This document shows positions 2,298 through 56,404 of a DNA stretch of 64,000 nucleotides, piece after piece. Below the pieces are notes generated by a model. The model was not told where the DNA came from, searched no databases, and saw only the letters and a list, made by a program, of their open reading frames with translations. This stretch comes from Candidatus Mediterraneibacter pullicola (GTDB lineage: Bacteria > Bacillota > Clostridia > Lachnospirales > Lachnospiraceae): contig DXAK01000008.1 of assembly GCA_019117065.1 (NCBI GenBank), positions 1 through 64,000 on the forward strand, written 5' to 3'. The position numbers were made by a program, and so were the translations under genes. The first letter of the stretch is position 1. Each line of letters opens with the position of its first letter.

Positions 2298-2331
2298 TTT
2301 CATTCTTTTTTATCGTAAGACTGGGATTATT

Positions 2332-2374
2332 GTAACACTTCAGCCCGCACCATTCCTGATAACTGAACTGTTAT
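2332..2374. mobile_element. Minute inverted-repeat element (MITE-like), copy C, 43 bp
   Basis: The ends read GTAACACTTCAG and CTGAACTGTTAT, an imperfect terminal inverted repeat. A perfect 8-bp direct repeat, GGATTATT, flanks the element at 2324-2331 and 2375-2382, as expected of a target-site duplication. The right-hand duplication contains the rpsO stop codon (2378-2380), so insertion at that point left the protein unchanged. The left end matches two other elements in this window (19941-20100 and 54795-54856). With 43 bp it can encode nothing and would have to be moved by an enzyme acting in trans. Confidence 0.72.
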
Positions 2375-2377
2375 GGA

Positions 2378-2644
2378 TTATTTTCTAAGTCCAAGTCTCT
2401 CGATGAGTGAACGGTATCTCTCGATATCGATCTTCTTAAGGTATGCAAGAAGTCCTCTTCTCTGACCTACCATCTTAAGAAGTCCTCTTCTTGAGTGGTG
2501 ATCCTTCGGATTTGCCTTAAAGTGCTCTGTAAGCTCGTTGATCCTTGCTGTAAGGATAGCGATCTGTACCTCCGGTGATCCTGTATCACCTTCTGTTCTT
2601 CCATACTCTTTGATGATTGCCTGTTTCTTGTCTTTTGCGATCAT
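2378..2644 (-). CDS. rpsO: 30S ribosomal protein S15
   Basis: An 88-residue primary 16S rRNA-binding protein of the small-subunit platform. The sequence is a standard full-length S15: the conserved [14 protein letters not shown] segment, [16 protein letters not shown], and the C-terminal [13 protein letters not shown]. The start at 2644 is preceded by AAGGAGGAAACAGAC. It is separated from ribF by its own promoter and leader. The stop codon falls inside the 8-bp duplication of a small repeat element. Confidence 0.98.
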
Positions 2645-19864: not shown

Positions 19865-20133
19865 GATTTATCCTCGCTTTCCCGCATTTCTCGCTCGCTG
19901 CAGCATACGCCGCTTTTTTGTTTATGCACAGACATCGTCCACAGTTCAGCCCACGCCATTCGCAAAACCGCACTTCGTGCTTACTGCGGCATATGCCGCT
20001 TTTTTGCTCATGTGCTGGCGCTCATCTCATACATCTTTGCGCTTGCAGGCTCATGCAAGCATGATCTGCCTTCGCGCAAAGATGTATGGCTGAACTGTTA
20101 ATACAGTTTTCTCAATATTTCGGAAAATATGTA
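19865..20133. other. Repeat-rich intergenic region between gpr and rpsT
   Basis: No protein-coding gene is supported here. Near-identical direct repeats of about 23 bp, each containing GCCGCTTTTTTG, occur at about 19900-19925 and 19985-20010. The second includes the perfect 14-bp palindrome GCGGCATATGCCGC (19986-19999) followed by six T residues, a terminator-like hairpin reading rightward. The larger inverted-repeat element at 19941-20100 covers most of the rest. Confidence 0.6.
19941..20100. repeat. Composite inverted-repeat element, copy A (decayed relative of copies B and C)
   Basis: The outer ends form an 11-bp perfect inverted repeat, ACAGTTCAGCC (19941-19951) and GGCTGAACTGT (20088-20098). 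Inside is a 15-bp perfect inverted repeat (20028-20042 with 20074-20088, core ACATCTTTGCGC) and within that a 7-bp one (GCTTGCA/TGCAAGC). The left part, through CGCCATTC and AAAACCGCACT, matches the element at 54795-54856. No flanking target duplication was found, and the left end has lost the GTA of the consensus, so this copy looks old or rearranged. Confidence 0.6.
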
Positions 20134-53841: not shown

Positions 53842-54663
53842 TCAGAGCCGTCCGATCACCTTCGTTACCAGACGCTCAAACTCTTCCGCTCTTCTGTCCG
53901 CTACCGCCTGAACATCCAGCTGGCTTAGCTCTTCGTCAGACAGTCCGCTTGCCATATTTGAGATACAGGAAATCCCGCACACTTTTACCCCTGCATGGCG
54001 GGCCGCAATTGCCTCGCACGCGGTACTCATCCCCACTGCATGAGCGCCAATCATGGCGTACATCTTAATCTCCGCGGGGCTCTCAAAATTAGGGCCCGTT
54101 GTCTGAAGATATACGCCCTCCTTCAAAGGGATCTTCTCCTTCTTAGCCGTTTCCCTGATAATCTCCATGAGACCCTTGTCATAGATATGGGTCATATCCG
54201 GGAAGCGCTCCCCCAGTTCTGAGATATTTTCCCCAATGAGAGGAGATGGCACAAAACTAGAAATCTGATCTGTAATCATCATGAAGTCTCCTACATGGAA
54301 GCCCTCTCCCATTCCCCCTGCCGCATTGGTCAGAAAGAGAGTCTCAATGCCAATGCGCTCCATCAGGCGCACAGGAAGAACAACCTCCTCCATCGTATAC
54401 CCCTCATAATAATGTACTCTCCCCTTCATTACCACTGCGGGGACATCTCCGATATATCCAAGCAGGAATCTTCCGTCATGTCCCTGCACTGTCGATACTG
54501 GGAAACCGGGAATGTCCCCGTAAGGGATCTCATGCAGCACTTCCATGTTGCGCGCATACCCTCCAAGCCCTGATCCAAGGATCAGCCCTACCCGCGGAAT
54601 AAAATCTGTCACGGATCGATAGTATTCATAGCATCTCAAAAGTCTTTCATACTGTACACTCAT
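53842..54663 (-). CDS. Purine nucleoside phosphorylase (trimeric PNP-I type)
   Basis: 273 residues. Phosphate site GLILGSGLGGYARN, then VQGHDGRFLLGY, the loop EGVYLQTTGPNFESPAEIKM, VGMSTACEAIAARHAG and the base-binding CGISCISNMASGL. Asn in SNMA favours 6-oxopurines (inosine, guanosine) over adenosine, which would suit a deaminated methylthioinosine substrate. The start at 54663 (MSVQYERLL) follows GGAGG. It precedes the MTA/SAH deaminase gene on the same strand. Confidence 0.92.
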   Translation of the reverse strand: MSVQYERLLRCYEYYRSVTDFIPRVGLILGSGLGGYARNMEVLHEIPYGDIPGFPVSTVQGHDGRFLLGYIGDVPAVVMKGRVHYYEGYTMEEVVLPVRLMERIGIETLFLTNAAGGMGEGFHVGDFMMITDQISSFVPSPLIGENISELGERFPDMTHIYDKGLMEIIRETAKKEKIPLKEGVYLQTTGPNFESPAEIKMYAMIGAHAVGMSTACEAIAARHAGVKVCGISCISNMASGLSDEELSQLDVQAVADRRAEEFERLVTKVIGRL

Positions 54664-54794
54664 CAAGCTTCCTCCTGCTGTGCTTCCCATACTGCACCGT
54701 ATAGGATATTCTGCCTTTTTACCTGCTGTTTTCTATTATACCTTCTTCCCGCCTATAAGTCGAGGAAAAACCTGTTTCCGTACATTTTCTCAAA

Positions 54795-54856
54795 GTAACA
54801 GTTCGGCCAGCGCCATTCAGAAAACCGCACTGACATCCTGATGGCTGACCTGTTAC
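54795..54856. mobile_element. Minute inverted-repeat element (MITE-like), copy B, 62 bp
   Basis: Begins GTAACAGTTCGGCCA and ends TGGCTGACCTGTTAC, a 15-bp imperfect terminal inverted repeat. It is flanked by a perfect 8-bp direct repeat, TTCTCAAA, at 54787-54794 and 54857-54864. The right-hand copy contains the stop codon of spoIVA (54860-54862). The interior includes CGCCATTC and AAAACCGCACT, shared with copy A at 19941-20100. No reading frame of note. Sequence and duplication together indicate transposition by a trans-acting enzyme. Confidence 0.8.
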
Positions 54857-54859
54857 TTC

Positions 54860-56332
54860 TCAAATAATAATGCACACCATTCCCCCGTTCATATCATTGA
54901 CAATCTTCTGCATGGAATCTTGAAGCTTCATCTGGCTCTCATCATTGATCATGGCGATCTTATTTCTCATACCGTCCATAACCAGTTCTTCCACAGATTT
55001 TCCAAAGATATTCGTCCCCCAGATTCCCTGCGGTGTTTCGCTCTCTTTTTTGATATACTCCACCAGATCTTCTGCCTGCTTTTCATTTCCTACAATAGGC
55101 GCGATCTCCGTCTCAATATTAGCGCGGATCATATGGATTGAGGGCGCTTCGGAGCGGATCTTTACCCCGTATTTGCTTCCCTGTTTGATGATAACCGGCT
55201 CTTCCAGCCTGATATCCTCCCGCGACGGACTGACAACGCCGTACCCCTTCATCTTTACATCTGCAAATGCATCTTTCACACGGCTTAACTCATCCCGCAT
55301 GGACGCCAGTTCCCTGACTGTGGCAATCAGCTCATACTCTCCTCTGATGTCTGCCCCAGTCATCTCGCTTAACACTTCATAATAATACTTCTGTTCAAAT
55401 CCAATCTGCACCCTGACTCTGCCAGTATCCATCTCGATCTGCTCGATGGAGATATTGTCTATGTATGGACTGTCCGGCTCAAGGGTACGCCCGGCAGCGC
55501 TTCTGACATCGTCCATATCCGCCATGACAGCACGTGCCTGTTCCAACAAAGCTTGCTTGATCTTATGGTCTCTTGGAAGCATTTCCGTCCATTTGGGCAC
55601 ATAGAACTCTACCTCTGTGATCGGGAACTCGTAGAGCACCTGACGCATGATCTCATGGATATCCTCCTGCTTTAGCTGCTCGCAGTTCACCGGGAGCACA
55701 CATGCGTTGTACTTCTGTTCCAATTCCTGCTTTAATGCGGATACCTCGTCGGTATACGGTTTCTGACAATTCAGAAGGATAAGGAATGGTTTCCCGATGG
55801 ATTGAAGTTCTTTTACTGTCTTTTCCTCCGCCGGTATATAATTCTGCCGTGGAAGCCCGGTCAGACTCCCATCTGTTGTCACTACAAATCCAATGGTCGC
55901 ATGGTCATGGATCACCTTCTGCGTCCCGATCGCAGCGGCCTTTGTAAATGGGATCTCATATTCAAACCACGGCGTCTTAACCTGACGTTCTGCATCGTTT
56001 TCCGTATGCCCGGACGCGCCTTCCACCATATATCCCACACAGTCGATCAGGCGTACCTTCACCTCCACATCGTCGGACAGGCGCACGGACGCCGCCTCCT
56101 TTGGAACGAATTTCGGTTCTGTTGTCATGATTGTGGTCCCTGACGCAGACTGGGGAAGCTCATCCTGTGTCCTTGCCCTTGCATGCTCATCCATCATATT
56201 CGGCAGTACAAGAAGATCCATAAACCGTTTGATAAATGTAGATTTTCCTGTCCGGACCGGGCCGACCACGCCAATATAGATCTCCCCGCCTGTCCGTGCC
56301 TTCATGTCTCTGTATACCTGAAATGAATCCAT
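54860..56332 (-). CDS. spoIVA: Stage IV sporulation protein A
   Basis: ATPase that polymerises on the forespore surface to found the spore coat and cortex. 490 residues. P-loop GPVRTGKSTFIKRFMD (near residue 24) in an N-terminal GTPase-like domain, DCVGYMVEGASGH and LLNCQKP motifs, and the conserved C-terminus GGMVCIII that binds SpoVM in Bacillus. The start at 56332 (MDSFQVYRDMKARTGG) follows AAGGGGG. The stop codon is inside the 8-bp duplication of a small mobile element. Expressed in the mother cell by sigma-E in relatives; no clear promoter was read here. Confidence 0.97.
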   Translation of the reverse strand: MDSFQVYRDMKARTGGEIYIGVVGPVRTGKSTFIKRFMDLLVLPNMMDEHARARTQDELPQSASGTTIMTTEPKFVPKEAASVRLSDDVEVKVRLIDCVGYMVEGASGHTENDAERQVKTPWFEYEIPFTKAAAIGTQKVIHDHATIGFVVTTDGSLTGLPRQNYIPAEEKTVKELQSIGKPFLILLNCQKPYTDEVSALKQELEQKYNACVLPVNCEQLKQEDIHEIMRQVLYEFPITEVEFYVPKWTEMLPRDHKIKQALLEQARAVMADMDDVRSAAGRTLEPDSPYIDNISIEQIEMDTGRVRVQIGFEQKYYYEVLSEMTGADIRGEYELIATVRELASMRDELSRVKDAFADVKMKGYGVVSPSREDIRLEEPVIIKQGSKYGVKIRSEAPSIHMIRANIETEIAPIVGNEKQAEDLVEYIKKESETPQGIWGTNIFGKSVEELVMDGMRNKIAMINDESQMKLQDSMQKIVNDMNGGMVCIII

Positions 56333-56404
56333 AATAATACCCCCTTGTTCTGCTGATACAATGTATGCAGGCACAAAAGGGGGTATGACTGTTTCTTTTC
56401 TGTT

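Follow-up and report, generated by a model that had tools for sequence, protein, structure and literature searches.

A 62-bp sequence at the spoIVA stop codon of Candidatus Mediterraneibacter pullicola is very probably a MITE with ends served by an IS66-like transposase

As spoIVA of Candidatus Mediterraneibacter pullicola ends inside one of two identical octamers that enclose a 62-bp sequence, we were interested in what this sequence is and how it could come to lie on a stop codon without changing the gene. The analysed stretch of 64,000 nucleotides (the window) had received a first-pass annotation, in which the sequence was read as MITE-like and as flanked by a target duplication of 8 bp, a reading that our analysis supports. 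Direct reading of the letters confirmed the positions and bases given there: on the plus strand, TTCTCAAA is followed by the element, running from GTAACAGTTCGGCCA to TGGCTGACCTGTTAC, and by a second, exact copy of TTCTCAAA, with both octamers abutting the element (Table 1). The two 15-bp ends pair at 13 of 15 positions and thus form the imperfect terminal inverted repeat that had been reported. With 62 bp in total, the element carries no transposase gene. Very probably, the sequence is a MITE and represents an internally deleted member of a palindromic family of about 164 bp that is dispersed in the genus and whose ends are served by an IS66-like transposase.

Table 1. Positions in the window of the 62-bp element, of two further family members and of the neighbouring genes.
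Feature	Position	Strand	Evidence
Non-autonomous element (very probable MITE), internally deleted, 62 bp	54795..54856	.	letters and family comparison
Left terminal inverted repeat GTAACAGTTCGGCCA	54795..54809	+	13/14 to family end GTAACAGTTCAGCC
Right terminal inverted repeat, TGGCTGACCTGTTAC on + strand	54842..54856	-	13/14 to family end
8-bp target duplication TTCTCAAA, left copy	54787..54794	.	
8-bp target duplication TTCTCAAA, right copy, holds spoIVA stop codon	54857..54864	.	
spoIVA, stage IV sporulation protein A	54860..56374	-	TIGR02836, 629 bits; stop TGA 54862-54860
Purine-nucleoside phosphorylase gene, next downstream in same direction as spoIVA	53842..54690	-	
Full-length 164-nt relative, ends decayed, without target duplication (1/8)	19938..20101	-	142.9 bits, E 1.4e-33
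43-bp mini-element, same family	2332..2374	.	
Target duplication GGATTATT, left copy	2324..2331	.	
Target duplication GGATTATT, right copy, holds rpsO stop codon (2380-2378)	2375..2382	.	
rpsO, 30S ribosomal protein S15	2378..2644	-	TIGR00952, 141 bits

When the element and its flanks were used as query, four partial relatives were detected in the own genome, and longer queries led to a dispersed palindromic family of approximately 164 bp with the 14-bp ends GTAACAGTTCAGCC. Each end of the 62-bp element agrees with this family end at 13 of 14 positions, and the element retains about the first 38 and the last 24 bases of the long form. The similarity of its interior to positions 19941-20100, already remarked upon in the first-pass annotation, reflects a full-length family member at that place. 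A covariance model built from 40 full-length congener copies gave 21 places at E ≤1 in the own genome, including the 62-bp copy itself with E 0.4, although very short copies are scored poorly by this model and some in the own genome may be missed. Matches to the 62-base query were present in 36 of 58 genomes of the genus, the own genome counted. Partial family copies also occur in tandem, in the window at 19882-19926 and 19968-20012 with 86-bp spacing, and elsewhere at L003 (spacing about 162 bp) and on contig C44 (78 bp).

Target duplications were then assessed across the family. The input of 109 loci, consisting of 28 of the 30 loci from the 62-base genus search (L148 and L149 omitted) and of others, was reduced to 93 distinct copies, and dropping 20 copies with an end below 11/14 left 73 copies in which both ends score at least 11/14. 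In 20 of these 73, an exact 8-bp duplication directly abuts the ends, compared to 0.06% of mismatched left/right pairs, and 9 further copies agreed at seven of the eight flanking positions. Any other duplication length from 3 to 12 was exact in at most one of the 73 copies, and when the boundary was allowed to shift, the only matches to stand out were 6- and 4-bp cores nested within these 8-mers. A and T predominate in the 20 exact duplications, 16 of which have A as their fourth base. An exact duplication was absent in the other 53 well-bounded copies, which fits the expectation for older copies without being proof of it.

Other genomes contain an insertion sequence that matches the family both in its ends and in its duplication length. 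PF03050 transposases were present in 6 of 18 genomes searched, with no match in the own genome (94.3% complete), where a transposase of the partner type was also absent at E 1e-10. The classical IS66 elements of the genus were rejected as partner due to mismatching ends. In a distant IS66-like group (L309, L316 and L318), three places show exact 8-bp duplications, and the ends are of the type GTTACTGTTCACAC; these ends agree with those of the family at only 10-11 of 14 positions, and the group was rejected as well, but it was the step leading to the partner element: in one genome found with this group, a transposase gene was followed directly by an exact MITE end. A scan of genome contigs with this transposase protein resulted in 32 loci, 13 of which were left out as one or both ends were missing from the sequence analysed or were poorer. 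The remaining 19 loci each contain a complete element, 1812-1835 bp in length, both ends of which agree with GTAACAGTTCAGCC at 12/14 or better, and 14 of the 19 showed exact 8-bp duplications (control 1/342), L344 with its unreadable left flank being scored as a miss. These elements, from Sporofaciens musculi WCA-9-b2, Lachnospiraceae bacterium 3-2 and others (L332-L355), share the ends and the 8-bp duplications with the MITE family and differ from the gene-free 62-bp element by a transposase ORF of 494 amino acids. Within the genus, a close transposase (68% identical) was present in one of 58 genomes, G047, as part of a 1820-bp element whose ends score 14/14 and 13/14 and which is flanked by an exact 8-bp duplication of CGAAAAAA; four further genus genomes gave transposase matches at 33-34% identity, and one gave a short match at 37%.

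The partner transposase reached 73.6 bits against the Pfam model DDE_Tnp_IS66 (PF03050; cut-off 23.1) and 151.6 bits against NCBIfam NF033517, and because the latter score is below the IS66 cut-off of 180 the element is named IS66-like. Members of the IS66 family have ends starting with GTAA and generate 8-bp duplications, as is the case for the partner with its GTAACAGTTCAGCC ends and 14 of 19 exact duplications. Classical members also carry the accessory genes tnpA and tnpB; neither was found in L332, which has a single ORF of at least 100 amino acids, or in L340, where ORFs of 62-77 amino acids accompany the 494-aa ORF.

From these results, an insertion at spoIVA may be explained as follows. 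An IS66-like DDE transposase acting in trans would use the ends of about 14 bp, as the complete elements have identical ends and an identical duplication length. Cuts staggered by 8 bp in the A/T-rich target where spoIVA ends, followed by gap filling, would have copied TTCTCAAA to both sides; the duplication itself is observed, and the cut-and-fill chemistry, established for DDE transposition, is what we infer for this site. As a result, spoIVA and the purine-nucleoside phosphorylase gene would now be separated by an extra 70 bp that can form a hairpin. The TGA stop codon of spoIVA lies inside the right octamer, as had been noted, and because this octamer leaves the gene complete up to and including its stop codon, the earlier statement that the protein is unaltered holds. 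The insertion is most likely tolerated and near-neutral. Relatives free of the element were found at 29 of 29 congener spoIVA 3' ends (of 56 congeners with a match, and with one locus reaching only 34 bases past the stop), as no end better than 10/14 was detected within 60 bases past the stop, these congeners being other species with 3' flanks that differ from the own genome. The last residues of SpoIVA agree across the 29 congeners except for M/L and one I/F change.

The landing of so small an element exactly on a stop codon had been considered unusual, a view that did not stand, as it recurs in the same window: the 43-bp mini-element is flanked by an exact duplication of GGATTATT, the right copy of which spans the TAA of rpsO. 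Family-wide, a stop codon that follows at least 80 open codons overlaps the target 8-mer in 10 of 85 copies, of which 5 are among the 18 short copies and 5 among the 67 longer ones; none of the 14 IS copies shows such an overlap. These counts are approximate, since the duplications are poor in several short copies. An A/T-rich target together with selection against intragenic hits could explain such landings.

It may be asked whether the element arrived in its present size. It could also have been longer at insertion and have been shortened in place by an internal deletion, so that the 62-bp form itself never moved, and we consider the chance of this to be slightly below even. Most short forms have an internal junction of their own, and a deletion of this kind spares both ends and duplications. 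Forms of 36-59 bp with perfect ends were present once each in 7 of 58 genomes. Against shortening in place, three congeners have a similar form of 43 bp, with no detectable flank similarity between the places and with flank matches of 8/8, 7/8 and 6/8, which suggests, rather than proves, that short forms can move. Likewise, intact duplications in the own genome were found at the two short copies of the window, whereas 20 other located places agree at most at 5 of 8 flanking positions, some of these places being partial matches with ends that may not be true ends.

A different reading, which takes the sequence for a structured regulatory RNA or a terminator of the spoIVA transcript and the octamers for a coincidence, appears highly improbable. 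The minus-strand RNA of 54787-54864, comprising element and octamers, does fold (-28.8 kcal/mol, z -3.5), and the consensus fold of the full-length family is conserved: for 14 of its 48 pairs, many of them in a variable hairpin, at least one sequence has both partners changed. The 62-bp copy has however lost most of this family fold, no terminator-like site was detected within 54600-55000, the element is missing after spoIVA in all 29 congeners examined, and the family occurs with 8-bp duplications at many unrelated places.

Equally little speaks for membership of the element in the sRNA family Clostridiales-1 (Rfam RF01699), which we regard as very doubtful and rejected: full-length relatives match the full model at 29.7, 29.6 and 33.5 bits and a stretch ATGAG-helix-CGAAT can be recognized by eye in both families, but the gathering score is 48 bits (best values 29.7 for own-genome loci and 33.5 for the congener loci scanned), only one of ten scanned loci with full-length copies matched at E ≤0.1, at E 1 the reverse search with the model of the GTAAC family missed all 26 RF01699 loci, and the ends differ, as do the duplications, with 8 bp in the family of the element and 7 bp in RF01699.

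RF01699 nevertheless resembles the element family: it, too, is a palindromic repeat of comparable length that is scattered within this genus and has flanking duplications. It differs by its other ends, its 7-bp duplications and a score that the element family does not reach. It was detected above cut-off in 26 of 58 genus genomes and in none of the 14 control genomes. Inverted ends starting with GATG (GATGCC...GGCATC) delimit the RF01699 copies, and the 64 loci collected represent 53 distinct copies, 38 of them from G018. Exact 7-bp duplications were found in 29 of the 53 distinct copies, compared to 48 of 2756 mismatched pairs, and in 7 of 15 copies outside G018. That Clostridiales-1 copies behave as mobile DNA is well supported by their ends and duplications. 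A 2010 paper lists Clostridiales-1 in a table, and its main text contains neither the word transposon nor the word mobile (PMC2864571). No description of Clostridiales-1 as mobile was found in the literature searched. RF01699 annotation hits should therefore not be taken as conserved regulatory RNAs by default, as further evidence is needed for this. At least 40 RF01699 matches were observed in G018 (L090-L113 and L150-L189 span G018 and other congeners).

It is conceivable, if unlikely, that one structured RNA core (ATGAG-helix-CGAAT) rides on both the GTAACAGTTCAGCC/IS66-like and the Clostridiales-1 transposition systems, the core being selected and the sRNA family mobile. The uncertain part of this proposal is the core common to both families, and the reverse search with the GTAAC model speaks against it. 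If true, the core would be the part under selection, e.g. a protein-binding RNA, and more than filler, and what is catalogued as an sRNA family would be mobile DNA.

For the 62-bp element, a known and ordinary mechanism is well supported, in which a MITE belonging to an IS66-like element came to lie where it does no harm. Short, gene-free elements with a target duplication and inverted ends shared with an insertion sequence have been described as MITEPsy1 of Pseudomonas syringae (PMC3189936) and MITECca01 of Cardinium (PMC9769881); both differ from the element in duplication length, in size (100 bp and about 240 bp) and in their parents, which are a suspected IS5-like element for MITEPsy1 and IS982 for MITECca01. 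No published description of the GTAACAGTTCAGCC family was found in the literature searched. An abundant repeat of one Lachnospiraceae genus can now be linked to a specific insertion sequence. Moreover, elements of about 43-62 bp, barely more than two ends, bear intact target duplications, and insertion at a stop codon can spare the gene, as for spoIVA and for rpsO in the same window.

Some further forms were observed among the copies. In the own genome, the copy at C44:25211-25375 has the ends GCACCAGATC...GATCTGGTGC, in which letters have changed and are yet still complementary. Two elements of 186-187 bp in G023 and G037 (L288 and L297) have the same 14-bp ends and exact 8-bp duplications with another interior, and both are located at the same flanking sequence.
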